Shown here piece after piece: positions 35,928-64,000 of a DNA stretch of 64,000 nucleotides. This stretch comes from Methanosarcina barkeri 3 (GTDB taxonomy: Archaea > Halobacteriota > Methanosarcinia > Methanosarcinales > Methanosarcinaceae). Under the pieces are notes generated by a model that saw only the letters and a program-made list of their open reading frames with translations, was not told the DNA's origin and searched no databases. How positions within the stretch are numbered: position 1 is the stretch's first letter; each line of letters begins with the position of its first letter. A program made the position numbers and the translations under genes. The stretch spans positions 1,240,001 through 1,304,000 of the forward strand of contig NZ_CP009517.1 of the NCBI RefSeq assembly GCF_000970305.1, given 5' to 3'.

Positions 35928-36315
35928 ATAAAACAAATTTGAGAGCAATCCAAAAGGATAACCTTGAAAGGATAATCTCTAAAGGATAACCTTAAAAGAT
36001 AATCTGTAAAAGATAAAACGAGTGTATAGTAAGCTAAGTTACTTAGCTATACATCAAATTTTTTCTAAAACTTAGAGGATGCATCCTTATTCTTTCAATT
36101 GTTCTTTATGAGTCAGCCTTATTTGGTTAAGCCTAATCTGCCTATTTTCAGTTTGCCTATTTTCAGTTTGCTATCATATCTATCAGTATCTGTCAAATTG
36201 ATAGCAATCAAAACTATCGATATCTATGAAATCGATAGCACCAAAAACGAGAAAGGTATCAGGAAGCTAGTCTTACATAGACCATCAAATAATTTTTTAA
36301 ATATGTTAAAATGTG
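35928..36315. other. Gap with short tandem units
   Basis: Units of the type AAAGGATAA-CCTTGAAAGGATAATCT recur at about 35953-36018, then AT-rich sequence. No gene seen. Confidence 0.4.
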
Positions 36316-36837
36316 TTAATACCTGCGTACCATCTCCTCCTGCCATTCCGTCTCCGGCCATCCTCTAAAGCCTCTGAGCTTGTTTATATCATCCAGATAA
36401 TTTATCACTTCATTAGCCTGAAAACCAAGACCCTTAAGCACACATCCAAGAACGGTTCCGGTTCTGCCTATACCTCCCACGCAATGGACAACAATGCCTT
36501 TTCCTGCATCCATTTCTGTTAGTATTATATCAGTTGCCTTTCTTACAAGCCATTCAAGTGTATCAGGATCATACGGATAATTACCATAATGCAGGTCTTC
36601 TAATTCTGCAGAAAAGAGAACCTCAAGAGGATAAGGATTATAAGATACTTCAGGATCACAAAGACAGACAACACTTGAGAAACCCGCTTTCCCTATTTCC
36701 TCCCAGGGCGTGTGTACTCTGGGATAAGACATACCAGCCAGAGGTACAGGCTCCTTAAGTATAACATAAAAGTTCAGCGGGACTCGGATGCCTTCTATTA
36801 CAGGCATCGCCATAGGACTCAGTAAAGAAGACGCCAT
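36316..36837 (-). CDS. Dual-specificity/tyrosine-type protein phosphatase
   Basis: 173 residues. The P-loop HCVGGIGRTG (118-127) carries the Cys and Arg of the cysteine-based phosphatases, and DPDTLEWLV just before suits the upstream helix. PLNFYVILKEPVPLAGMSYP at the N-terminus resembles the start of archaeal DSP proteins. Cytoplasmic, probably removing phosphate from Tyr/Ser/Thr or a small molecule. No ribosome site: TATA box TTTATATC ends 21 bp before ATG 36837, so the mRNA is likely leaderless. Confidence 0.87.
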   Translation of the reverse strand: MASSLLSPMAMPVIEGIRVPLNFYVILKEPVPLAGMSYPRVHTPWEEIGKAGFSSVVCLCDPEVSYNPYPLEVLFSAELEDLHYGNYPYDPDTLEWLVRKATDIILTEMDAGKGIVVHCVGGIGRTGTVLGCVLKGLGFQANEVINYLDDINKLRGFRGWPETEWQEEMVRRY

Positions 36838-36858
36838 GCTAAGAATATGAGGTTAGAA

Positions 36859-36866
36859 GATATAAA
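36859..36866 (-). promoter_or_regulatory. TATA box giving a probable leaderless mRNA for the phosphatase gene
   Basis: TTTATATC on the minus strand ends 21 bp before the ATG. That places the archaeal transcription start at or next to the start codon, and no Shine-Dalgarno site is present. Confidence 0.5.
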
Positions 36867-37200
36867 TTTCGTTTAAAGAGTCGAACATATGAGTATAAGT
36901 GTAACAGTATTTCGTGGCCCAATTGTTTCAAAACAGTCCTAACTTTTTCCGGAATTCTTCCAGATCCTTAAATGTAGAAGATACATATATTCGAGCCATT
37001 CTATCTACCAATCTTCCAGCCAATTATTCCAGAAACACATTAAAATACTAGAAGTTAAATCTTTTGAATTAATTTGATTATCTTAAAATAAAAAATAATT
37101 GGACAATTCCCACTTTACCTACATCCCATACCTTTTAATATTCCAAACTCCGTAACTATGCTCACTTACGCATGCCAATCATCTTCAGGTGACGTTATCA

Positions 37201-38358
37201 ATGTATTCCGACCGAATCAACGCATTACCCCCATACCTTTTTGCTACTATAGACGAAGCGAGGGACGAACTGATTGCCAGGGGAGTCGACGTTATCGACC
37301 TTGGCGTAGGAGATCCTGACCTGCCGACGCACCAGCATATTGTCGAGGCTGTGCAGGAAGCTGTCTGCGACCCGAAAACTCACCAGTATCCTTCTTATGC
37401 AGGGATGCCGAAATTCAGGAAAGCGGCAGCGGATTGGTGTAAGAAATACAAGGGTATTGAGCTTGACCCTGCAACTGAAGTCCTTGCCTTGCTCGGGTCA
37501 AAGGAAGCAGTTGCACATATTCCGCTCGCTTTTGTCAACCCTGGAGATATCGTGCTCTATACTGAGCCAGGGTATCCGGTTTACAAAATCGGGACAATGT
37601 TTGCTGGTGGAGAGCCATATCCACTGCCGCTGACTGCCGAAAATAATTTCCTGCCGGACCTTGACTCAATTCCTGAGGATGTCCTGAAAAAAGCAAAGTT
37701 ATTCTTCTTTAACTACCCGAACAATCCGACTGCTGCAACTGCTGACATGAAGTTTTTTGAAAAGGTCGTTAAATTCTGCAAAAAGAATGACATCATTGCA
37801 GTGCATGACAACGCTTACTGCCAGATGACATACGACGGGTACGAATCTCCTTCTTTTCTTGCTGCCGACGGAGCAATGGATATTGGCATGGAACTCTATT
37901 CGCATTCCAAGACCTATAACATGACAGGCTGGAGGCTCGGGTTTGCAGTAGGAAATAAAGATCTTATAAAGGGACTCGGCAAGGTCAAGTCCAATGTGGA
38001 CTCAGGTGTCTTTGACGCTATCCAGATCGCAGGAATTGCAGCTCTCTGTTCTTCCCAGGCCTGTGTCGAAGAAACAAACAAAATCTATCAGGAGAGACGA
38101 GATGCCCTGATAGAAGGACTTACCGCAATGGGCCTCAAAGTAAAACCGCCAAAAGCCACCTTTTATATCTGGGCTCCGGTACCTGAAGGTTTTACCTCAA
38201 TGAGTTTTGCAAAACTCCTGCTCGAAGAAGCCGGAATCATTGCAACCCCTGGTGTCGGGTTTGGAGAAGCCGGCGAAGGTTACATCAGGTTTGCCCTCAC
38301 AAAACCTGTCGAGAGGATTAGAGAAGCTGTCGAGAGGATGAAAAAACTGAAATTTTAA
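37201..38358 (+). CDS. dapL: PLP-dependent aminotransferase, LL-diaminopimelate aminotransferase-like
   Basis: 385 residues from ATG 37201; GTG 37189 lies within the ribosome site AGGTGACG, so it is not the start. Fold type I aminotransferase: PLP lysine K237 in SHSKTYNMTGWR, FFFNYPNNPTAATA, and VHDNAYCQMTYD. The N-terminus (YLFATIDEARDELIARGVDVIDLGVGDPDLPTH) is typical of archaeal DapL, which converts tetrahydrodipicolinate directly to LL-diaminopimelate in lysine synthesis. Other amino-donor specificities are possible. Single gene. Confidence 0.87.
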   Translation: MYSDRINALPPYLFATIDEARDELIARGVDVIDLGVGDPDLPTHQHIVEAVQEAVCDPKTHQYPSYAGMPKFRKAAADWCKKYKGIELDPATEVLALLGSKEAVAHIPLAFVNPGDIVLYTEPGYPVYKIGTMFAGGEPYPLPLTAENNFLPDLDSIPEDVLKKAKLFFFNYPNNPTAATADMKFFEKVVKFCKKNDIIAVHDNAYCQMTYDGYESPSFLAADGAMDIGMELYSHSKTYNMTGWRLGFAVGNKDLIKGLGKVKSNVDSGVFDAIQIAGIAALCSSQACVEETNKIYQERRDALIEGLTAMGLKVKPPKATFYIWAPVPEGFTSMSFAKLLLEEAGIIATPGVGFGEAGEGYIRFALTKPVERIREAVERMKKLKF

Positions 38359-38461
38359 GTGTTTATTTCAAAAAGAATCTGGCCCGCGAATGGGATACCA
38401 GGCCAGAAAAATTTTCTCTTTCTACAGCAATCCTGTCTTTTTAATAAGCTCTATGTGAACT

Positions 38462-39007
38462 TCATTTTCTATCAAAAAAGATATTTTTCCCGGTTGCACT
38501 TAGCGGAATTCCAAAAACAACATCTGCATCCAGCAAGCCTGAAACCCTGGCGGCTGCACCGATTGAGTACATCACTCTATTATCAATGCAGAAATCCTTG
38601 GCTTTTGCAACGGCTGCTCCTACAGCAATTCCCAGGTCTACATATTTGAGCATGCAGTTCGGGCCACTGAAATCTACTTCTACCTTTTGCCGGTTCAGCA
38701 TCTCAGCACAGGTTTCAAAACCACAGGCTCCACAGTCCAGGCCTGCAGCTCCTCTGGTTTTAACACCAATCAGGACAGTAGCCCCTGCATTTCGAAGATT
38801 TGCAGCATCCCTTTTTAAAAAAGCAAAGCCTGCACCTTTTTCCTCTGCCAGTCTTTCCATTGTCGAGGCAAGCAATTCTACATCAGATTTTTCGACAAGG
38901 GCAGTCACTATATCGTCTACACCTTTTGCTTTAGGGGCAGTCCGTGCAGCTAGAAGTACGCTCTTTGCAAGTATGTTAAGGACTTCGGATTCAGGATTGA
39001 GAATCAT
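38462..39007 (-). CDS. DUF2148 ferredoxin-domain-like protein
   Basis: 181 residues. Contains GLDCGACGFETCAEM plus a later SGPNCMLK, a four-cysteine arrangement like the Fe-S region of DUF2148 proteins, and the conserved DLGIAVGAAVAKAKDFCIDN and GLLDADVVFGIPLSATGKN segments. Probably binds one 4Fe-4S cluster; function unknown. Convergent with dapL, and 73 bp upstream of the beta-CASP relic on the same strand. Confidence 0.85.
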   Translation of the reverse strand: MILNPESEVLNILAKSVLLAARTAPKAKGVDDIVTALVEKSDVELLASTMERLAEEKGAGFAFLKRDAANLRNAGATVLIGVKTRGAAGLDCGACGFETCAEMLNRQKVEVDFSGPNCMLKYVDLGIAVGAAVAKAKDFCIDNRVMYSIGAAARVSGLLDADVVFGIPLSATGKNIFFDRK

Positions 39008-39079
39008 GCCAGCTAATTAGATCCATCCGGGTTTAAGCATTTCGCAGGCTAAAAAGGCTATTTGTTTTTCTTTCCTTCT

Positions 39080-39667
39080 TTAAAAGGTAAATAACTCCCC
39101 ATTTGCAGGCGCATAAGCATCCACGCCGATTTCTTCCGAAATCCACTGTGCAAAGCTTTCGGTTTTGTCCCCATGCATTACAAAGACTCTTTCCGTATCT
39201 TTCTTGCAGAAATCCTTCACAACCTTTTTGAGCTCGCTATCGCCGCTATGTGCGGAAAAGTCATACTGTTCCACTCTGGGCTTGAGAGTGAGAATATCTC
39301 CTCTGGTCTCGACAAACCTGTGATCAAGGGCCAGCCTGCCGTTTGTGCCTTCTACCTGGTAGCCAGTAAGCAGGATTCTTGAATCAGGATCTTTGTAAAG
39401 CCGGCTGAGATAATGCATTACGAACCCTCCATTCAGCATTCCGGCTGTAGTGACAATAACTAACGGTTTTTTAAGGACTGGCTCCCCTGCCTGTCGTTTA
39501 CGGAAATAGCATGTTCGAAAGCCCTGTCCAAGAGGTCTGGATTTTTCAGGTATTCAGGATACTTTTTTAAGATTTTTGTACACATCTCTGCACATGCCGT
39601 CCACGTAAGCCTGAATTCCGTGGGCATCAAGCAGCATAAGTATCTCCTGGGTTCTGCCTATTACATT
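39080..39667 (-). pseudogene. Truncated, frameshifted copy of the beta-CASP nuclease
   Basis: Close copy of the C-terminal half of the gene at 41819-43060: IGRTQEILMLLDAHGIQAYV, then MLNGGFVMHYLSRLYKDPDS, QYDFSAHSGDSELK and VMHGDKTES. The frame is broken at least twice: one extra base in the T-rich run near 39570 and one base missing near 39500. Similarity ends sharply at about 39667, leaving no metallo-beta-lactamase metal site. The stop codon is preserved at 39080. Arose by duplication of the intact gene 2.1 kb away. Confidence 0.9.
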
Positions 39668-39970
39668 TCGGCTCAATACAACTGTAGAGGATATTCTGAA
39701 ACCTCGACTAGATAACGTCTGGTTTTCATTAATATAGAGTAATGTTTTCAATATTCATCTCCTTATTTATAATTCTTACTATATTATATTCTCTAGATAC
39801 TAATGTTGCTATAATTTAGACCCATTTCTTCGACATACAATATGGAGATAGAATTTATCCAATACTAATCTTCTAAAAAAATGTGTCTTGATGATTAATT
39901 GATAAAGCAAAATCTGCTTAACGAATTCATAAAGCAGGCCCAATTGTCTATTCGCATACGGGGGTAAAGA

Positions 39971-41365
39971 ATGAAAATTGGATTGAAAATTGGATTGATA
40001 GTTTCTCTACTATTTCTATGCTTAGCTATTCCTCTTAACGCCGCGCAAGCATCAGAACCTGCAGGAACCATCGCAGTCAAAGTAGATAATGAAACTTCAA
40101 TGAACACAACAACTTCGGCCCAAGGATCCGCACCGTGGCTCACAAGCCCAGGGCTGAACACGGAAGAACAGGGACTCTACCACTTTCCCAGGGACCACCA
40201 GTGGCATAGCGGACCTACCTACCACTTCAACGATTTCGATGAGTGGCACTACTTCACATTCCTGGGCAAGGACCTGACGACAGGCCACAACATATCTTTG
40301 TTTGTGTGCAATTTACAACAGGGTTGGCGCAATGACATACAAAGGCCCCACACCAGGGTTCTCGTAGCCTACCTCGACAAAGATGAAGCCAAGTTTTACA
40401 GTCATGCCATTGACCCGACGGGCAAGTTTGTAACCACGGGATCCAATGGGGATTTTAATTATACGGTAGGTGAGGTTGGTAAGGAGCAGGGTTTGGCCAC
40501 GAACTACAGCTATTCCCAGGAAAGGTGGAATTTCAAAGGGTGGGCGACAAACGAGAGTAATATGACCGTCGGCACTCCGTACAACTTTGACGTCACCGGG
40601 ATCGTAAAGGTCCCAGGCTACATTCCAATGGCCTACTGGGGGCTGGAAAATATCGGATTCAACAACCAGTACGACCAGAACCCTTCGACTATGTACGGTC
40701 TTTCATATTACTACGTAGCCCCGGAGATGGAAATGAACGGCATGGTAACCCTTGATGACGGCGTCGTCCATGAGATTGAAGGCATAGCCTGGTTCGAACA
40801 CCAGTGGGGTAACTTCCAGTCACCTGAACAGCTCCGATACTTCTGGGGATATGCCCGTTTCCCCAATGGAGATTCATTCACCTGGAGACAGTATTACGGC
40901 AGTCCTGCGGGAGTTGTACCTACCACCATACCTTTCAACATAACAGCCGCCATGATGGGTTGGGACTCTCCGCAGATTCAACAAAACCGGTTTGCTTTTG
41001 TACCCAGGGGCCAGCCACCGCAGTATGCATTCGGACCGTCCATGGTGTACACGCCGACAAAGTGGTGGACATCACCTATAACGAATATGTCGTACCCGTG
41101 GTGGGGCGAACTAAAGACGCCGAAAGGAACGTTCTACGTATCCCCATCCGCTACTCCTTCTCAGGAGAGCGCGGGCGCTGCGGGTCCATTCATAGAGGGA
41201 GCGTTGGAGCTCCATAGTGGCTCGATTGATGGACCAGTGGTAGCAGAAGGATTCTGTGAACTGGCACAGCTACCTCCACTAGGAGCGCCAATCTCCCGTG
41301 GGCTTCCCGAAGCTACTGCTCCGGGACACATCCGCTTCGACGGCGGTCTGAACCACAGCGTATAG
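39971..41365 (+). CDS. Secreted AttH/CrtC-like lipocalin-fold protein, probably acquired
   Basis: 464 residues. Signal peptide 1-27 (LIVSLLFLCLAIPLNAAQAS). The body matches the AttH/CrtC (carotenoid hydratase-like, tandem lipocalin) family: HSGPTYHFNDFDEWHYFTFL and the hallmark GIAWFEHQWGNF at 271-282. Homologues hydrate carotenoids or act on lipophilic compounds; here the export signal suggests an extracellular substrate, not known. Codon choice is visibly richer in G and C at third positions than neighbours, which suggests horizontal transfer. It interrupts two copies of a beta-CASP gene. Ribosome site GGGGTAAAG precedes ATG 39971. Confidence 0.83.
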   Translation: MKIGLKIGLIVSLLFLCLAIPLNAAQASEPAGTIAVKVDNETSMNTTTSAQGSAPWLTSPGLNTEEQGLYHFPRDHQWHSGPTYHFNDFDEWHYFTFLGKDLTTGHNISLFVCNLQQGWRNDIQRPHTRVLVAYLDKDEAKFYSHAIDPTGKFVTTGSNGDFNYTVGEVGKEQGLATNYSYSQERWNFKGWATNESNMTVGTPYNFDVTGIVKVPGYIPMAYWGLENIGFNNQYDQNPSTMYGLSYYYVAPEMEMNGMVTLDDGVVHEIEGIAWFEHQWGNFQSPEQLRYFWGYARFPNGDSFTWRQYYGSPAGVVPTTIPFNITAAMMGWDSPQIQQNRFAFVPRGQPPQYAFGPSMVYTPTKWWTSPITNMSYPWWGELKTPKGTFYVSPSATPSQESAGAAGPFIEGALELHSGSIDGPVVAEGFCELAQLPPLGAPISRGLPEATAPGHIRFDGGLNHSV

Positions 41366-41645
41366 AAACAGAACTGAACCTCTCGTGTGGGAACTGAACA
41401 GGTAACCGCGTCGCCGATATGGAACGTCGGCGATGCTAAATCGACTGGGGCAGCTTGTCCTTCCGTGGTATGGGAGGCTTGAAGACCTGGAAATCTCCAG
41501 TGACAGGACTTGGTTGCCTGACCGAGGGCCTTATAATGACTGGGTTAAGGGCTGTCCGACTCACCACCGGACGGCAACCCTGTTGATAGCGCCCAGCAGA
41601 CATCCAACCTTCTTTAAGGAGTAGTTCTCCCTCGTGATGATCCAT
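41366..41645. other. GC-rich segment with two strong stem-loops behind the AttH-like gene
   Basis: Composition matches the AttH-like gene, not the host spacers, so it probably came with it. Stem 1: GCGTCGCCGA (41408-41417) with TCGGCGATGC (41427-41436), 10 bp. Stem 2: GCTGTCCG (41551-41558) with CGGACGGC (41568-41575), 8 bp with a 9 base loop. Open frames of 60-70 codons on both strands show no family similarity. Could be a structured RNA or terminator remnant of the donor DNA. From 41646 to 41818 normal AT-rich sequence resumes. Confidence 0.5.
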
Positions 41646-41818
41646 CAGTGCTCGATGAGTGTTTTCTAAAATGGATGGTTATCAAGCCCTTGTTGATAAT
41701 GAAGATATCTGGATGATTTAAATGCCAAAAATTCTGTCCAAAGAGTGCAGTAAAACCACAAATAGAAAAAGATGTTTAAGAATCTTTTTTAATAACTGTT
41801 CATCCTTTCATTTTATTT

Positions 41819-43060
41819 TTAAAAAGTAAAAGATTCCCCGTTTGTGGGTGCATAAGCTTCCACACCAATTTCCTCTAAAATCCACTCTGCAAAAGCTTCG
41901 GTTTTATCTCCATGCATTACAAAGACCTTTTCAGTGCCTTTATTGAAGAAATCTTTCACAAGCTTCTTGAGCTCACTGTCTCCACTGTGTGCAGAAAAGT
42001 CGTACTGTTCTACCCTGGGTTTGAGGGCCAGGACATCTCCGTTGGTTTCTATCATCCGGTGTTCCAGAGCCAGCCTGCCATTTGTGCCTTCAACCTGGTA
42101 GCCAGTAAGCAGAACTTTGGAACTGGGATCTTTGTAAAGCCGACTCAGGTAATAAAGTACAGGTCCCCCGTTCAGCATTCCGGCTGTAGTAACAATGACG
42201 GAAGGTTCTTTAAGGACTGAGTCCCTCTGCTGGTCTTTTACGGGAATGGCACGTCCGAAAGCCCGGTCAAGAAGTTCGGGATTTTTAAGGTATTCTGGGT
42301 ATTTTTTAAGAATCTTGTAAACATCCCTGCCCATGCCGTCCACATAAGCCTGAATTCCGTAAGCATCAAGTAGCATAAGTATTTCCTGAGTCCTGCCTAT
42401 TGCAAAGGCAGGGATAAGGGCAGTTCCTCCTCTATCGAGAGTATTAAAGATCGATTCGATAAACCTCTCTTCGGTTTCTTTTCGTGGGATATGTTCTTCC
42501 CCAAAGTACGTGCTCTCGAGAATAAGAGTATCGGCCTCGGGAAATTCGGCTGCACCGGGCACAAGTCTTGTTTCCTTAAGGTTGAAATCTCCGGTATAAA
42601 ACAGGCTTTCTCCGGATTCCGATTCAAGGAAGACTCCGGATGCTCCGGGGATATGGCCTGCGTTGTAAAAACAGATTCCGTACCCATGACTTTTGAAAGG
42701 CTTGTCATAATCGATTTTTTGTGTTCGCCTGGCGAGCTTCTGGAGGTCATCGGGATCAAAAGGAGATATTCCTGACAGCGTACTTTCTGCAAGTTTCAGG
42801 GTGTCTTTTCCAAGCAAAAAAGTAAAGTCTGCAGTCGGAGGAGTCATGAAAACCTCAGGATTCTGATACATAAGGTTGGGGACAGCTCCGCAGTGGTCAA
42901 GATGCCCGTGGGAAATAAGCACGACCTTCGCTTCCATGCTATTAAGAGGGTACTCTGGAATGTCCCCTGTTTTTATCCCGTAATCGAGCAAGACTTCCCC
43001 ATTTACAAGCAAACCCGAACGTCCTACTTCCCTGCATCCGCCTTTAAAGGTAAGTTCCAG
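41819..43060 (-). CDS. Beta-CASP metallo-beta-lactamase-fold RNase (CPSF/Ysh1-like), probable CUG start
   Basis: 413 residues from CTG 43060. Zinc motifs: SHGHLDHCGA, AGHIPGA, YTGDFN, ESTYF; beta-CASP motifs FAIGRTQE, and SAHSGD with final VMHGD. Members are endo/5'-exonucleases for RNA processing; this is the form without KH domains. The nearest ordinary start is TTG 43012, which would remove ELTFKGGCREVGRSG, the conserved first strand of the fold. The frame is open upstream, and AGAGG at 43068-43072 sits 7 bp before CTG 43060 (ATT 43063 is the alternative). A decayed duplicate lies at 39080-39667. Confidence 0.9.
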   Translation of the reverse strand: MELTFKGGCREVGRSGLLVNGEVLLDYGIKTGDIPEYPLNSMEAKVVLISHGHLDHCGAVPNLMYQNPEVFMTPPTADFTFLLGKDTLKLAESTLSGISPFDPDDLQKLARRTQKIDYDKPFKSHGYGICFYNAGHIPGASGVFLESESGESLFYTGDFNLKETRLVPGAAEFPEADTLILESTYFGEEHIPRKETEERFIESIFNTLDRGGTALIPAFAIGRTQEILMLLDAYGIQAYVDGMGRDVYKILKKYPEYLKNPELLDRAFGRAIPVKDQQRDSVLKEPSVIVTTAGMLNGGPVLYYLSRLYKDPSSKVLLTGYQVEGTNGRLALEHRMIETNGDVLALKPRVEQYDFSAHSGDSELKKLVKDFFNKGTEKVFVMHGDKTEAFAEWILEEIGVEAYAPTNGESFTF

Positions 43061-43558
43061 AATAAAACCTCTTGAAAATTTATGAATTTATTTAATTTAA
43101 AAAATTCTATCGGATTTATTAAGCTTATTAAATTATTAAGCTTAATAGTTTAATAAGCTTGGTTCTCAATAATTTTGCTTATTTTATTATTTCAGGTGGT
43201 TCTCTGGTTGTTCTCAACTCAGTCACTCTTGAAAAAGCAAAGTTCAGTTTGGTTATTTCACTTCAAGTACTTGTTCTAATTTTAAGAGAACTTTGAATTT
43301 TAAGGTGAGACCTGAAACCAGTAAAAACAGCATTTTGATAATCCTAATATGATAGTAAGCACATAAAAACTTGCAAAAACTTTGTTACTCTGTTACTCTG
43401 ATTTGGGTCTAAAATCAGGGTTCGAAAACGTTTAGCGCAGTTAAAGGTTTTACAGATAGTAAGATAAGACTATTCATTTCATATTCAGTTCTAAAAAGCT
43501 GCAAGATCAAAAGTCTGTAAAAATTATAATTATGCATAGTTAAAATAAAGGTGGTCAC

Positions 43559-43768
43559 ATAGCTAAAATAAGGCGATCAATTAGAACCGAAAAGAAAATA
43601 ACTAATTTTACTGCAGAAGACTTTTTAACAACCATATCGAGAAAGACAGAGTTCCATTTTCTGTATTTACCAATATGGCATGTAACTTTCAAGCTGGAAA
43701 CTACACTTTGTCTGCAAAAGCTGGTAAACTGCACCTGGCCTACAAAAAGTGAAGACCAGCTTAAATGA
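43559..43768 (+). CDS. Possible small protein with AUA start
   Basis: Open frame of 69 codons with no ATG/GTG/TTG near its 5' end, but AAGGTGGTC lies at 43548-43556 in the usual register before ATA 43559. Reads IAKIRRSIRTEKKITNFTAE and so on, basic at first then hydrophobic (FHFLYLPIWHVTFKLE). No family recognised. It ends 24 bp before the amine oxidase start. May be a real leader gene, a decayed gene or chance. Confidence 0.3.
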   Translation: MAKIRRSIRTEKKITNFTAEDFLTTISRKTEFHFLYLPIWHVTFKLETTLCLQKLVNCTWPTKSEDQLK

Positions 43769-43792
43769 ATTGTGGAGATGGGGAGAGATAGA

Positions 43793-45382
43793 GTGTCTGA
43801 TATTATAAGTTCCGATACGGTAATAGTAGGGGGAGGCATCACAGGTCTTTATACCTTTTACAAACTAAAACAGTTAAAAGGCGTTAATCATACCGTTTCT
43901 CTGTTTGAAGCTACAGGTCGCTTTGGAGGTCGAATCGAGACTGTAGAAATGGGAGGATTTTTAGCAGAATATGGTCCAATGCGATTTGAGAAGCTTGCAC
44001 AACCCCTACTTATGGATCTCATAACCGAACTTGGTCTGGAGACAAAACCTTTCGTACCCTATACAGCGGCAAAAGATCCTGATTCTCTTTTTGATTTAAC
44101 TTTTGACGAATCCGGAGGTAAATGCTCTGGGAGTAAATTGACAACACTTGAGTTATTGAAACTGGGAATTCTACGCCTATTAAATGCAAGCGGTGGAGAT
44201 ATGAACGACCCTAATGACCCCAGGCATCGGGCATGGTGGGCTACTCTTGACGAGGAGTACTACAGCTATGTACGTAATGAGGCGAGCTACAACGGAAAAC
44301 ATCTCTACGAGATCGGCTTCTGGAACGCACTCAGTCTTGTTCTTAGCTACCGTGCAGTGAATAAAATCATACATTATGGGACTTTCTACCATCTTATTCA
44401 TTTTAACCCCAATGCAGCAGAATGGATTATTTTCTGGCTGCGCGGACTGCATCCTGACGATGAACTGGTTGGCATAAAACAGGGTACTGAGTCTCTTGTT
44501 CAGGAGTTAGTCCGTAAATTGGACTCTGGACCTGAACTCTCAGGCTCGTTACATCTTAATCACAGGTTAACAGCTCTTTTTTCCCAGCCTGATGGAAGAG
44601 TTTTACTGGAATTTAAGGCTGAAAATAAGGCTGAAAATAAGGCTGAAAATAAGGCTGAAAATAAGGCTGAAAATAAGACAGAAAATAAAATTGGCAATAA
44701 AACTGACAATAATGTAGTTAAAGTACTGGCAAAAAATGTTGTGCTTGCATTACCTCGTTGTCCTCTGATGCAACTTCGTCCTCAGTTACCTGAGTATATT
44801 GGAGAACTGGTAGACTCTGTAATTCCTATTCCACTGGTAAAATGTTTCTTTGTTAATGAGAATCCTTGGTGGAATGAATTCACACCGCCACAAACACGAG
44901 CCTCATCTACTCCAGCAAGGGAAATCCATTATGCCTTCAGGAAAGACGGAAATCAAAAACGTGGGATTGTAATGGTTTATGGTGACCCGCCAAGTATGCG
45001 CTACTGGATGCCATTTGTACGGCAACCGGAACATCTAAAGGCAGAACTAAATCGCGATAAACGTCTTGTTGAAGGCTACCTTCAATATCTACGGTCAAAC
45101 CCTGACAATACAGACGTTGAAGATATAGAAGCAGAGGCTGAACTAATAAGTTGTTTCGGCATAAGGGACTGGAGCCGTGAACCATTTGAAGCGGGTTGTC
45201 ATATCTGGAAAGCTGGCGTTCGCGCTGAAGAGGCAATAAAAGAGTTAACTGCATTCTCATTACAGGGTTCACAGCTATCAAATAAAAATATCCATATATG
45301 TGGTGAAGCTTATTCGGATTTCCAGGGTTTTATCGAAGGTGGTTTACGAACGGCGCTGCAAGTTATAAAGCACATTACTTGA
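43793..45382 (+). CDS. FAD-dependent amine oxidase (flavin monoamine oxidase family)
   Basis: About 529 residues from GTG 43793, which follows GGGGAGAGATAGA; ATG 43778 and GTG 43772 are alternatives. Dinucleotide loop DTVIVGGGITGLYTFYKL, then FEATGRFGGRIETVE, and the C-terminal FAD contact ICGEAYSDFQGFIEGGLRTA. Oxidises an amine or acts as a desaturase-like flavoenzyme; substrate unknown. An inserted low-complexity stretch (AENK repeated) at about 276-305 comes from a 12 bp DNA repeat and probably forms a surface loop. No operon partners. Confidence 0.88.
   Translation: MSDIISSDTVIVGGGITGLYTFYKLKQLKGVNHTVSLFEATGRFGGRIETVEMGGFLAEYGPMRFEKLAQPLLMDLITELGLETKPFVPYTAAKDPDSLFDLTFDESGGKCSGSKLTTLELLKLGILRLLNASGGDMNDPNDPRHRAWWATLDEEYYSYVRNEASYNGKHLYEIGFWNALSLVLSYRAVNKIIHYGTFYHLIHFNPNAAEWIIFWLRGLHPDDELVGIKQGTESLVQELVRKLDSGPELSGSLHLNHRLTALFSQPDGRVLLEFKAENKAENKAENKAENKAENKTENKIGNKTDNNVVKVLAKNVVLALPRCPLMQLRPQLPEYIGELVDSVIPIPLVKCFFVNENPWWNEFTPPQTRASSTPAREIHYAFRKDGNQKRGIVMVYGDPPSMRYWMPFVRQPEHLKAELNRDKRLVEGYLQYLRSNPDNTDVEDIEAEAELISCFGIRDWSREPFEAGCHIWKAGVRAEEAIKELTAFSLQGSQLSNKNIHICGEAYSDFQGFIEGGLRTALQVIKHIT
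44618..44701 (+). repeat. 12 bp in-frame tandem repeat inside the amine oxidase gene
   Basis: GCTGAAAATAAG repeated five times exactly (44618-44677), then two diverged copies. Because the unit is 12 bp, copy-number change lengthens the AENK loop without breaking the frame. Confidence 0.93.
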
Positions 45383-45610
45383 ACTAAAGCACATTACTTG
45401 AACTTAGAGACAGTTCTCTGGCTTTGTAAAAACCTCTATTTTCTTGTTATTCTTTTTCTCTCTTTAACGAATCCACATACAGGCTGACGACAACAGGCAA
45501 GTTTTCAGGTAAGATTTCTGTTTTGGCCAGACTCCAGAGAAAAGATCTTATCTGTTGGCAACAGTATAAACATATTATATCAGTTTTATATCACAAGGAG
45601 TTGAACCAAG

Positions 45611-45769
45611 ATGACAAAATTATGTCCACTGCGTCCGAATTCTCCCTTAGGAAACAGAGCGCCCGATTTTGCAGCGTGCCTTGAGGAACAATGCGCATGG
45701 TTCGATAATGGAGAATGTGCAGTAAGATCGTCTACGGGCTGGCGCATTCAGGTGAGAAATGGCTTGTGA
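45611..45769 (+). CDS. Small cysteine-containing protein, 52 residues
   Basis: MTKLCPLRPNSPLGNRAPDF, then CLEEQCAWFDNGECAVRSS. Four cysteines with C-x4-C-x7-C and an earlier CP, a pattern of small zinc-binding proteins encoded in archaeal genomes and viruses. AAGGAG ends 9 bp before ATG 45611 and a TATA-like TTTTATATC lies at 45579-45587, so promoter, ribosome site and ORF line up. Function unknown. Confidence 0.7.
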   Translation: MTKLCPLRPNSPLGNRAPDFAACLEEQCAWFDNGECAVRSSTGWRIQVRNGL

Positions 45770-45868
45770 AATATCCTTCATCTAAACAGATTGCTTTCTG
45801 AGCCATATCGAGCAGGATAAGAGAGAACAGACAGAGAGAACAGACCTCATAAATGCAACAGTTTTCCC

Positions 45869-45924
45869 ATAAAACCACTACATTTTGTCAAATTATATAA
45901 AACCACTATATTTTGTCAGATTAT
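45869..45924. repeat. 28 bp direct repeat, two copies
   Basis: ATAAAACCACTACATTTTGT followed by CAAATTAT, then a second copy with two substitutions, immediately adjacent. Lies in the gap after the small Cys protein. A strong purine run GAAGGAGGGAGA at 46038-46049 has no start codon behind it. Confidence 0.85.
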
Positions 45925-46246
45925 ATAGAACAATCTATGTATCTGATTACATTTCACACGAAAATTAAATTCTGAATAACTGGCACAAATAAATGAAAAT
46001 CATTTCAATATTTTCATGCTAACGAAGTACACACACTTGAAGGAGGGAGAAAAACAAAAGAGAAGCCTGGAATAGTAGTAAAAGGTAGTACAAAAGAGGT
46101 AGATTACTATTTGCCAATTTTTTCTTTTTCTCTTTTCAGGTAAAAACCGCTCTCCTTCGTCGAGCGTAATAAAAACGACATGGATGGAGAGTAAGGTTTT
46201 AGGGGTCAGAACTTAGATAAATTCTTCAACCGTCTACTTTTACCAG

Positions 46247-46365
46247 ATATATCAATTATATAGTGACATCAATTATATAGTGACATCAATTATATAGTGA
46301 CATCAATTATATAGTGACATCAATTATATAGTGACATCAATTATATAGTGACATCAATTATATAG
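46247..46365. repeat. 17 bp tandem repeat, six exact copies plus one
   Basis: TGACATCAATTATATAG repeats exactly six times from 46264, preceded by one diverged copy at 46247. It ends 43 bp before the topA stop codon, on its downstream side. Confidence 0.96.
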
Positions 46366-46407
46366 TAACAGGCAAAAGCAAAAATCAGACGTCAGTGAGG
46401 ACTATTT

Positions 46408-48699
46408 TCATGCGTCCTCAGCTGTACAGTTGTCCTTGACCGTGCTGTTGCCTTCAACCGTACCGTTGCACGAAACCTGCCAGCTTTTGACCTTCTTCAC
46501 GCTGGTCTTTATTATTTTCGCGAGCTCTACGGGGTCGGCTTCTGCCAGGGCTTCCACGCTTGTAATTCCGGCTTCTTCCAGTTTTCCTGCTGTGGCTTTT
46601 CCAACGCCTTCGAGGTCCGTAATCGATTTTGGCCTTTCTTTTTTGGGCAGCTGAGCCTGTTCTTCCTGCTGGGTTTTCTGCCATTCAATGAAATTGCACT
46701 GAGGGCAGCCAAGGTCCCAGGGCCGTTTTCCTGCATTGATTATACGGATATGGTGCAGGCCGTGAGTCTCACAGACCTTGTCAGTAACTATGATCTGTCC
46801 GCTTCTGGGCAGAGGAAGGGAAAAGGTACAGTTCGGATAATTGTTGCAGCCAATAAAACGGCCTCCTCTTTTCGAGCGCCGAATTATAAGCTCGTTTCCG
46901 CAGCCTGAGCAGATGCCTATGATTTTATCTTCCCTGAGGCCTGCCTGAAGAGATTCTACGATTTTTTCCCGGTTTTTATCAAGTTCCGAGAAGACCTGCT
47001 TTAATATCTCCCGCGACTCTTCAAGAACAGTAGACTCTTTGATCTTGCCCTCAGCAATCCTGTCCATGTTTTCTTCAAGCAGCTTTGTCATGTCCGGTTT
47101 TGTAATAGTAGGGGAGTACTTCTCAAGAGTATCCATTACTGCAAAAGAAGTATTCGTAGGCTGCACAGGATTTCCGTGGATGTAAGCCCTGGAGTACAGC
47201 TTGCTGATTATCTCATGCCGTGTCGCCTTTGTTCCAAGCCCGAGCTCTTCCATAATATTAATAAGTCTTCCCTGTCCGTAACGGCCTGGAGGCTGGGTTT
47301 CTTTATCCGGCATCTCTTTGTTTGTAACCTTCAGGGAATCGCCTTCATGAAGTTCAGGGAACAGTCTGTCTTCAGGCGCATTGTAAGGATAGTACCATCT
47401 CCAGCCATGTTCTACAAGCCTTGCCCCGTTTGCCCTGAACTCTTCTCCGTTGATGTCGAGTTTCAAGCGCATAGTTTCCCACTCGCTTGGCCCGGCAAAA
47501 GTTGCAAAAAAGCGCCTGACTACAAGTTCATAAACCTTCCACTCTTCCTCTTTTAAGTCGGACTCTTTTGCAAGGGAAGCCGGAAAAATAGGCGGATGGT
47601 CGGTAGTCTCCTTTTTTCCTCGCGTAGGAATGAGTTCGGCTTTCTCAAGAAGGGACTCTGCATATTCTTTAAAGGAACCTTCTTTGAAAATCTCAATCTG
47701 CGCCCTCAGGTCAAGAGTGTCGGGATAAACCGTATTGTCGGTTCTGGGGTACGAAATATAACCATTGGTATAGAGGGCTTCAGCTATGCGCATCGCATTT
47801 GCAGGACTGAGCCCGATTGAGTTTGCTGCGCTTATGAAACCTGTGGTATTGAAAGGAGTCGGGGGCTGGTCAGTCTTTTTCCCTTTTTCAATTTCTTTTA
47901 ATTTGGCCTGTTTCCCCAGTTTCTTGAAGACTTTTGTTGCCTCCTTTTTATCCAGGAAACGGCGAGTTGAATGTTGAGCCGAGAAGGTTTCTTCTTCTGC
48001 ATTTTGGAGTTCTACATGGATCTCCCAATAAGGAGTAGGGACAAAAATATTCCTCTCTTTTTCCCTGTCAACAATAAGAGAAAGAGTTGGCGACTGTACC
48101 CTGCCCACAGAAAGAAACATCTTTCCAAGCCTGCCTGCGGCAAGAGAAATATAACGGGTAAGGGCTGCACCCCAGACCAGGTCAATGACCTGCCTGGAGT
48201 GACCTGCATCCGCAAGATTAAAATCAACATCTGTCGCGTTTGAAAATGCGGCTTCTATTGCTTTTGGGGTTATTGCACTGTAGCGCACCCGGTCAAAAGG
48301 AACATTTGGATTCACCTGTTTTATAATATTGAGAGCCTCGACTCCTATCAGTTCTCCTTCCCGATCGTAGTCAGTAGCAATTGTAACCCTGTTTGCTTCC
48401 TTTCCCAGGCTTCTAAGGGCAGTTACAATCTTCCGGTTGATAGGAGTTGTTATTATATCGGCGTCGATAAGGGTTTTAGCCTCCACTTTCTGCCAGTTGT
48501 TGTATTCTTTGGGAAAATCGATCCCTACGATATGGCCCGACAGCCCTATAACTACAGTCTCCTGCTTCTCTTCATCGGACACAATTTCATACCGGTATAC
48601 GTCTACTCCACTGACTCTATCCTTCTTCGGGTTTTTTGGAGCCAGAATTGCAGCTATCCTCCTTGCTGCTATATTTTTTTCCGTTACAATAAGGTGCAT
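46408..48699 (-). CDS. topA: DNA topoisomerase I, type IA
   Basis: 763 residues. Relaxes negative supercoils by single-strand passage. Toprim domain 1-150 with TDYDREGELIG; active Tyr Y317 in NGYISYPRTDN; AGRVQS-type SVGRVQSPTL. C-terminal part has a four-Cys zinc finger (CSGCGNELIIRR...CNNYPNC), a second Cys/His element (CETHGLHHI...CPQCNF), and a helix-hairpin-helix (DLEGVGKATAGKLEEAGITS) that should bind DNA. The last 20 residues are a Thr/Asn/Asp-rich tail with near-repeats VEGNSTVKDN. GGAGTTTTAA precedes ATG 48699. Confidence 0.96.
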   Translation of the reverse strand: MHLIVTEKNIAARRIAAILAPKNPKKDRVSGVDVYRYEIVSDEEKQETVVIGLSGHIVGIDFPKEYNNWQKVEAKTLIDADIITTPINRKIVTALRSLGKEANRVTIATDYDREGELIGVEALNIIKQVNPNVPFDRVRYSAITPKAIEAAFSNATDVDFNLADAGHSRQVIDLVWGAALTRYISLAAGRLGKMFLSVGRVQSPTLSLIVDREKERNIFVPTPYWEIHVELQNAEEETFSAQHSTRRFLDKKEATKVFKKLGKQAKLKEIEKGKKTDQPPTPFNTTGFISAANSIGLSPANAMRIAEALYTNGYISYPRTDNTVYPDTLDLRAQIEIFKEGSFKEYAESLLEKAELIPTRGKKETTDHPPIFPASLAKESDLKEEEWKVYELVVRRFFATFAGPSEWETMRLKLDINGEEFRANGARLVEHGWRWYYPYNAPEDRLFPELHEGDSLKVTNKEMPDKETQPPGRYGQGRLINIMEELGLGTKATRHEIISKLYSRAYIHGNPVQPTNTSFAVMDTLEKYSPTITKPDMTKLLEENMDRIAEGKIKESTVLEESREILKQVFSELDKNREKIVESLQAGLREDKIIGICSGCGNELIIRRSKRGGRFIGCNNYPNCTFSLPLPRSGQIIVTDKVCETHGLHHIRIINAGKRPWDLGCPQCNFIEWQKTQQEEQAQLPKKERPKSITDLEGVGKATAGKLEEAGITSVEALAEADPVELAKIIKTSVKKVKSWQVSCNGTVEGNSTVKDNCTAEDA

Positions 48700-63002: not shown

Positions 63003-64000
63003 GTGACCACTGAAAAAAAGACCGTTTACATGGACAACTCGGCTACAACTCCTGTAAGAAAAGAAGTTGTCGAAGAGATGCTTCCGTACATGACTGAAAA
63101 TTTCGGAAACCCTTCTTCGATTTATGAGATCGGAAAAATCTCAAAACATGCAATAGACAAAGCGAGAAAAAAGGTTGCGGATGCTCTCGGAGCTGAAGAA
63201 AACGAGATCTATTTCACATCAGGAGGTACTGAATCCGATAACTGGGCAATTAAGGGGATAGCTTTTGCAAACCGGAATAAAGGAAAACACATAATCACCT
63301 CTTCTATCGAACACCATGCAGTCCTGCATACCTGTGCCTGGCTTGAAGGGCAGGGCTTTGAGGTAACATACCTTCCTGTAGACAAATACGGAATGGTATC
63401 CCCTGATGAAGTGAAGAAGGCAGTTCGAGCCGATACCATCCTTATTTCCATAATGCTTGCAAACAATGAAATAGGGACAATCCAGCCTGTAGAGGAAATA
63501 GGAAAAATCGCTAAAGAGAACCGGATCTATTTCCATACGGATGCAGTGCAGGCAATAGGCCATGTCCCTATTGATGTCAATAAAATGGATATTGACCTTC
63601 TGTCACTTTCAGGTCATAAGTTCGAAGGTCCAAAAGGCTGCGGAGCTCTCTACATTCGAAAAGGGACAAAAATAGATATTCTTCTGCACGGCGGAGCTCA
63701 GGAAAGAAAGCGCAGGGCCGGAACCGAGAACGTCCCTGCCATTGTGGGCCTTGGAAAAGCTATAGAGCTCGCAACAGCCGAAATTGAAGAATCAAATAAA
63801 ACCCTGCTTGAACTGAGAGAGCGCCTTATTAAAGGCCTTCTGAAAATCCCAAAAACTCACCTCAATGGGCATCCCACACAGAGGCTTGCAAATAATGTGA
63901 ATATCACTTTTGAATACATAGAAGGCGAATCGCTTCTGCTGCTATTGAACGCAAAAGGAGTTTTTGCATCTACTGGGAGTGCATGTAACTCTTCTTCTCT
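63003..64000 (+). CDS. nifS: Cysteine desulfurase NifS/IscS (C-terminal end beyond the window)
   Basis: 332 codons seen. Takes sulfur from cysteine for Fe-S cluster assembly using PLP. Starts at GTG 63003 behind GAAGGTGTGA. Family landmarks: VYMDNSATTPVRKEVVEEM, FTSGGTESDNWAIKG, SSIEHHAVLHTC, HTDAVQAIGH, PLP lysine in LSGHKFEGPKGCG, RAGTENVPAIVGLGKA and, at the very end, the catalytic Cys in STGSACNSSS. The usual partner gene is probably just downstream, outside the window. Its promoter carries the operator-like sites. Confidence 0.96.
   Translation, partial: MTTEKKTVYMDNSATTPVRKEVVEEMLPYMTENFGNPSSIYEIGKISKHAIDKARKKVADALGAEENEIYFTSGGTESDNWAIKGIAFANRNKGKHIITSSIEHHAVLHTCAWLEGQGFEVTYLPVDKYGMVSPDEVKKAVRADTILISIMLANNEIGTIQPVEEIGKIAKENRIYFHTDAVQAIGHVPIDVNKMDIDLLSLSGHKFEGPKGCGALYIRKGTKIDILLHGGAQERKRRAGTENVPAIVGLGKAIELATAEIEESNKTLLELRERLIKGLLKIPKTHLNGHPTQRLANNVNITFEYIEGESLLLLLNAKGVFASTGSACNSSS

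Follow-up and report, generated by a model that had tools for sequence, protein, structure and literature searches.

We examined a stretch of 64,000 nucleotides of Methanosarcina barkeri 3 (contig NZ_CP009517.1, positions 1,240,001 to 1,304,000; the window, along which the coordinates below are counted), in which a gene for an AttH/CrtC-like protein (AttH) lies between two copies of a beta-CASP nuclease gene, one intact and one broken. The two copies are in register, spaced 2739-2740 bp apart, are 76-87% alike by blocks and form direct repeats on either side of AttH (D1, 39067-39366 and 41806-42105, 79% identity; D3, 39563-39665 and 42302-42404, 87% identity). A translated search (tblastn) placed the intact nuclease at 41822-43012; the decayed copy matched at 39083-39688, covering residues 196-397 at 70% identity with one internal stop. 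Relative to the intact gene, the broken copy displayed two frameshifts, +1 near nucleotide (nt) 709 and -1 near nt 784 of the nuclease. Between the copies, AttH is the sole open reading frame (ORF) with a recognizable domain, and beyond the broken copy lies a DUF2148 gene, the native neighbour of the nuclease.

An earlier interpretation made from the letters of this stretch alone (the sequence-only reading) had noted both the direct repeats and at least two frameshifts, and these observations hold. Its description of the second copy as decayed applies to part of it: the last 119 codons are an open frame, the last ~280 bases are native to the host, and the 3' flank into DUF2148 is native as well.

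Among 30 genomes of the genus, full-length AttH was found in two, this genome (G000) and G004, so that the arrangement is not conserved genus-wide. G004 displays the same order: intact nuclease, AttH (95% alike), decayed nuclease and DUF2148. Meanwhile, G025 and G027 have a single nuclease and no AttH. A species tree of nine chromosomal genes placed G000 and G025 as sisters (support 99/98), and a sister relationship of G025 and G027 was rejected (approximately unbiased (AU) test, p 7e-5).

Comparison with these relatives revealed that both nuclease copies in the window are mosaics. Diagnostic sites were defined as positions with one letter shared by G025 and G027 and another in G004, those showing a third letter being set aside for the counts in the intact gene. 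The intact gene displayed 64 native-type to 8 donor-type sites before nt 880 and 9 to 37 after it (Fisher p 1.6e-14). In the broken copy, native-type sites made up 8 of 17 before this point and 42 of 51 after it (p 0.009). The intact gene is native to about nt 870 and donor-like from there on, while the broken copy is donor-like to about nt 905 and then native up to DUF2148; the switches (nt 861-882 and nt 901-912, respectively) coincide within ~50 bp, though not exactly. Identity to G025 follows the same course: in the intact gene it is 93-99% over most of the first 600 nt, 87-96% to about nt 900 and 73-76% thereafter, and the broken copy displays the reverse pattern, 66-84% followed by 93%.

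Segment trees agree with this division. In the 5' part, the intact gene forms a clade with G025 and G027 (100/99); in the middle part, the broken copies of G000 and G004 group together (99/96); and in the 3' part, the broken copy joins G025 and G027 (99/95), while the intact gene falls among G004 and G029 (91/96). For this 3' part, a topology constrained to unite the intact gene with G025 and G027 was rejected (AU p 0.003). Likewise, the 5' part of the intact gene is separated from G025 by a synonymous divergence (dS) of 0.189, close to the genomic level, and the 3' part by one of 2.5. Taken together, the native pieces of the two copies make up almost the whole host gene. By these comparisons of sequence, the two copies are reciprocal native/donor hybrids, and not an original and its duplicate.

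The broken copy of G004 is nearly full length (codons 24-397), and the blocks of the two genomes are colinear, their sole large gap being 519 bases that are present in G004 and absent here. Because the G004 block is colinear save for these extra bases, the half-length copy in the window is the product of a later 519-bp deletion and not of the insertion. No disabling lesion common to the two broken copies was found in their overlap, which gives no support for decay before transfer.

Table 1. Features of the AttH/nuclease locus and the segments recognized within them
Feature	Position in window	Strand	Extent	Evidence or remarks
DUF2148 protein, native nuclease neighbour	38462..39007	minus		Pfam 4.6e-32
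Broken nuclease copy	39080..39665	minus	586 bp
Native host nuclease 3' end in broken copy	39080..39362	minus	nt 912 to stop	frame open; groups with G025 and G027, 99/95
Donor-derived, decayed part of broken copy	39373..39665	minus	~nt 612-901	groups with G004 broken copy, 99/96; frameshifts
Junction of 519-bp deletion that took the 5' half of the broken copy	39665..39666			G004 has 519 extra bases here
AttH upstream region, adjoining broken-copy junction	39666..39970			full-length match in G000 and G004 (91%) only, of 30 genomes; colinear with G004
Native leader: end of 5' untranslated region and signal-peptide codons of AttH	39950..40074	plus		DNA identity to other secreted-protein genes; low GC content at third codon positions
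AttH/CrtC-like double-lipocalin protein	39971..41365	plus	464 residues	PF07143, 5.3e-7
Bacterial-type body of AttH	40118..41362	plus		53% to Pedosphaera protein over residues 32-461; tree 96/86
AttH 3' flank and donor nuclease 3' flank	41366..41818			GC-rich to ~41650; match in G000 and G004 (92%) only, of 30 genus genomes; part aligns past the stop with G273
Intact aCPSF2-type beta-CASP nuclease	41819..43012	minus	397 codons from TTG	Pfam, ORF; in-frame conserved extension to ~43060-43063
Donor-type 3' part of intact nuclease (RMMBL end)	41819..42131	minus	nt 882 to stop	diagnostic sites, tree, dS
Native 5' part of intact nuclease	42152..43012	minus	nt 1-861	diagnostic sites, tree, dS

We consider it probable that a block of ~2.8 kb entered this genome by homologous recombination inside the resident nuclease; the 519-bp deletion then halved the broken copy. 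The block (~39363-42152) would have comprised a donor nuclease 3' end, AttH and the decayed 5' part of a donor nuclease, and it would have entered after this lineage split from its closest relative, G025. The outcome would have been an intact hybrid nuclease, AttH, and a hybrid broken copy that retained the host's own 3' end. With both junctions placed at about nt 870-905 of the nuclease, a single crossover with a circular donor would be the simplest form of this event, though a linear piece could have entered by a double crossover. Coincident switches are necessary with one crossover of a circle, and by a rough estimate would arise about 1 in 10 times from two independent crossovers over ~1 kb of homology. 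Both the circularity of the donor and the direction of the change, gain rather than loss, are what we infer from these patterns. The link that the sequence-only reading drew between the arrival of AttH and the duplication of the nuclease is therefore retained, with homologous exchange making reciprocal hybrids as its mechanism.

This is reminiscent of Campbell-type integration, the single-crossover "pop-in" used in gene targeting, in which direct repeats of the target gene flank the insert, as they do here. In the window the nuclease is doubled in direct orientation round the insert, each copy being half recipient and half donor with nearly the same switch. In contrast to gene targeting, the locus is natural, the donor homology is ~80-97%, one copy is already decayed, and the circular donor has not been seen. 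Accessory genes are also acquired through homologous recombination in shared flanking genes, and here too gene content was apparently swapped between relatives without an integrase; the difference is that both arms are one duplicated gene, itself doubled and hybridized. An integrase, transposase, virus or plasmid as carrier was rejected: the block holds no integrase or transposase gene, and AttH and the nuclease have no relative in the viral contigs scanned or among phages. The plasmid collection yielded two weak Variovorax records (29% over 43% of AttH) and no DNA match.

The timing of the event was assessed from the divergence between G000 and G004. AttH displayed a dS of 0.204, lower than all 14 comparison values kept (0.25-0.61). 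These values derive from 11 ORFs (Topo included), DapC, DUF2148 and the nuclease 5' part; of 15 ORFs tried for this baseline, three lacked a match in G004 and 63222-63563 was dropped (dN > dS, where dN is the non-synonymous divergence), as it is unlikely to be a gene. In a pooled test that excluded the nuclease, 56 of 313 synonymous sites differed in AttH against 675 of 2339 in 13 comparison genes (p 2.8e-5). The low dS of AttH points to an exchange after the lineages of G000 and G004 had split.

Several explanations compete with a recent entry of the block. The main rival, which we regard as unlikely, is that AttH was present in the common ancestor of G000, G025 and G027, and that recombination between the copies removed it independently in G025 and in G027. 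Such losses would leave the mosaic pattern seen here and would also yield one gene whose 5' part comes from the intact copy and whose 3' part comes from the broken one, and the dS of AttH is about the depth of the split between G000 and G027 (Topo 0.19, DapC 0.21). What tells against it is that G000 is more closely related to G025 than either is to G027: a gain needs one event, whereas ancient presence needs two separate losses with almost the same crossover, each falling between the end of the decayed middle of the broken copy and nt 955. The proposal of the sequence-only reading, that part of the nuclease was duplicated when AttH inserted in this lineage and that the distal copy, the one proximal to DUF2148, was left to decay, accounts for AttH being flanked by direct repeats of which one is broken. 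It is the least probable of the alternatives, contradicted by the near-full-length copy in the same layout of G004, by the deletion that cut the copy here, and by the mosaics, in which the middle of the broken copy groups with that of G004 and its 3' part with G025 and G027. Nor do we give much credence to the idea that the 3' part of the intact gene is an ordinary patch of between-species recombination, unrelated to the arrival of AttH. Nuclease 3' ends are indeed mosaic and recombination-prone across this group (G029, G003 and G004), but the patch continues through the stop codon into a foreign flank common to G000 and G004 only, and its switch lies within ~50 bp of that of the broken copy.

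Some observations also weigh against a recent entry from a circular donor. Reciprocal mosaics are expected as well if an earlier AttH was lost by between-copy recombination in G025 and G027, and the dS of DUF2148 (0.25) is not far above that of AttH. The donor part of the intact gene includes a few native-type sites (912, 915 and 942). Its divergence from G004 is a dS of 0.56, and its last ~100 bases resemble G003, so that the donor was not G004 itself and later patches occurred. The 3' ends of the two copies of G004 are nearly alike (96%), indicating that gene conversion acts at the locus too. Lastly, a circular donor was sought in plasmid, phage and viral collections and none was found, and the sample holds one genome per species.

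If the block did enter in this way, the locus is a base-level record of a gene with a bacterial-type body spreading between archaeal species through homology in a housekeeping RNA-processing gene, and not through an integrase. It would also show that such an event can exchange the RNA-specificity end of a nuclease. A bolder and rather doubtful extension is that AttH behaves as an integrase-free mobile cassette: the two copies would recombine to free a circle of AttH and one nuclease, which would re-enter the nuclease of another species by one crossover. If true, AttH comes and goes within the genus through host recombination alone. Methanosarcina is a genus with genetic tools, and the window offers a testable pop-in/pop-out locus.

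The nuclease is itself widespread in the genus. In 28 of the 30 genomes a match exceeded that to the distant aCPSF1-type paralogue, some of these nucleases being broken; G020 and G023 have the paralogue only. The gap between nuclease and DUF2148 is ~65-185 bp in most of the 18 other genomes mapped and wider in G025, G029, G006 and G005; among these 18 loci, the stretch from G008 gave no DUF2148 match. In G025 (L039:2113-4781), TetR and DUF3795 genes and an inverted 51-bp fragment of the nuclease 5' end lie between DUF2148 and the nuclease, another insert at the same place. In G013 (L053:9252-10276 and L054:3-743), the nuclease is broken after codon 21, and a second, inverted copy of codons 153-397 lies at a contig end.

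AttH itself displayed an unusual composition. The sequence-only reading had called its codons GC-richer, and this proved correct: the GC content at third codon positions (GC3) was 0.565 against a mean of 0.384 (standard deviation 0.059) for the other 37 ORFs, a z of 3.08, making AttH the highest in GC3 and the lowest in codon fit of the 38 window ORFs scored. GC3 differs along the gene, being 0.26 over codons 1-35 and 0.59 for the remainder. The leader (query bases 285-409) is 81% identical in DNA to the beginning of a G011 gene encoding an NMTG-repeat protein, and a stretch overlapping it is 77% identical to a repeat-protein gene in G029. The same signal-peptide leader, weaker matches included, fronts unrelated secreted proteins, several of them NMTG-repeat-rich, in several genomes of the genus (L007, L096, L097, L098 and L107), which suggests that leaders are shared or shuffled.

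The closest full-length match of AttH is a protein from a metagenome-assembled genome (MAG) of Pedosphaera (Table 1), and the body is ~39-42% identical to a bacterial set. A scan of genome contigs with an alignment as query gave 264 relatives, of which the best 80 were kept; AttH alone had retrieved none. A tree was built from the first 48 of the best 80, of which 45 had a frame of at least 300 residues; with L059 and the two genus proteins it held 48 rows. The two genus proteins were sister to the Pedosphaera protein, within a clade of 25 rows that was otherwise bacterial (23 rows). Long branches (including that of L112) and five joins flagged with warnings call for caution with this tree, and the sister placement depends on a single MAG with a possibly contaminant contig. 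Vertical inheritance from relatives in Methanothrix was rejected, since six named Methanothrix-type sequences and G208 are separated from the genus proteins by long branches with full support. Hence, AttH is a chimera in which a native leader and signal peptide are joined to a bacterial-type body, and the view of the sequence-only reading that the gene is foreign-looking is supported for the body.

Beyond G000 and G004, two other genomes of the genus matched in part, one over 44 residues (the leader only) and one over 48, and 111 genomes of the family added nothing to the matches within the genus. Among 392 genomes of the phylum two others were found, G208 (26% over the body) and G273. The latter (L111:7321-7866) holds a C-terminal remnant, 74% identical over 43 residues, with weak similarity continuing past the stop into the flank; the joining of leader and body may perhaps have come by way of another archaeon such as this one. 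A possible AMP-ligase remnant at ~41550-41620 (tblastx E 0.001 against the G273 sequence) had no Pfam match and was dropped as chance.

The structure of AttH provided insights into its possible role. Its Pfam match to PF07143 (30.9 bits, cut-off 22.5) is weak and covers the end of the model only (residues 243-281), and the match to PF17186 was below the cut-off. A structure model (mean predicted local distance difference test score 66.7) aligned to chain 2ICH_B with Z 30.5 and a root-mean-square deviation of 3.0 over 305 residues (range 62-435, 18% identity), and displayed two lipocalin-like barrels. AttH NE1406 (PDB 2ICH, PF09410/DUF2006) has a double lipocalin-like fold (PMC2954199). The window protein shares this fold but differs in its low identity, its Pfam family and its genus-shared signal-peptide-like leader. 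Further matches of the model were kievitone hydratase (Z 27.7), the fungal pericyclases CghA/Fsa2/Phm7 (~21) and 25-phosphosteroid lyase (18.9); the overall fold is common to all, although identity is 8-16% and their substrates are not expected in a methanogen.

The carotenoid 1,2-hydratase CrtC (PF07143) has a motif of His-x-Trp with Tyr266 and Asp268, 25 and 27 residues after the Trp (PMC4717167). The window protein has HxW at 277-279 and matches the end of PF07143, but, compared by eye and without structural alignment, it has Thr304 and Arg306 at the Tyr/Asp spacing. Between G000 and G004, the dN of AttH is 0.025 and its dN/dS ~0.12, indicating that the gene is under constraint. From the model, AttH may be an exported hydratase/lyase-like enzyme or a carrier for a hydrophobic substrate. 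Its bacterial relatives (19 neighbouring proteins at 10 loci) lie near AraC regulators, MscS channels, BCCT transporters and Phenol_MetA_deg outer-membrane proteins, as well as a dehydrogenase, an esterase, an RND pump and an OpuAC domain, two neighbours being without a match. These neighbourhoods hint at osmotic or envelope stress and are too mixed for assigning a function.

The intact nuclease matched Beta-Casp (7.7e-17), RMMBL (2.4e-13) and Lactamase_B_2, with no KH domain, and scored 249 bits on the aCPSF1 model, far under its cut-off of 580. Because of these domain matches and the low aCPSF1 score, it is classed, by domain content, as a short aCPSF2-type beta-CASP protein. One other beta-CASP gene is present in this genome, 37% alike, with an open frame of 643 codons. 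Archaeal aCPSF2 is a 5'-3' exoribonuclease; the window nuclease resembles it as a short beta-CASP protein without KH domains and differs in having its RMMBL end swapped for a donor version.

The sequence-only reading had extended the intact gene to 43060. The first conventional start codon is the TTG at 43012, upstream of which a conserved stretch of 16-17 N-terminal residues (43012-43063, minus strand) is preceded by no ATG, GTG or TTG. The codons ATT CTG are conserved in 12 of 12 sequences read, and translation probably starts at ATT 43063 or CTG 43060, i.e., at a non-canonical start codon. Further upstream of the nuclease, at 43121-43160, lies an AT-rich near-palindrome with overlapping 22-nt arms that are 95% complementary. 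A search for RNA families over 36000-46500 found none above the gathering score and two chance matches. A 12-bp tandem repeat at 44597-44716 lies inside an amine oxidase gene, where it encodes a KAEN-type repeat.

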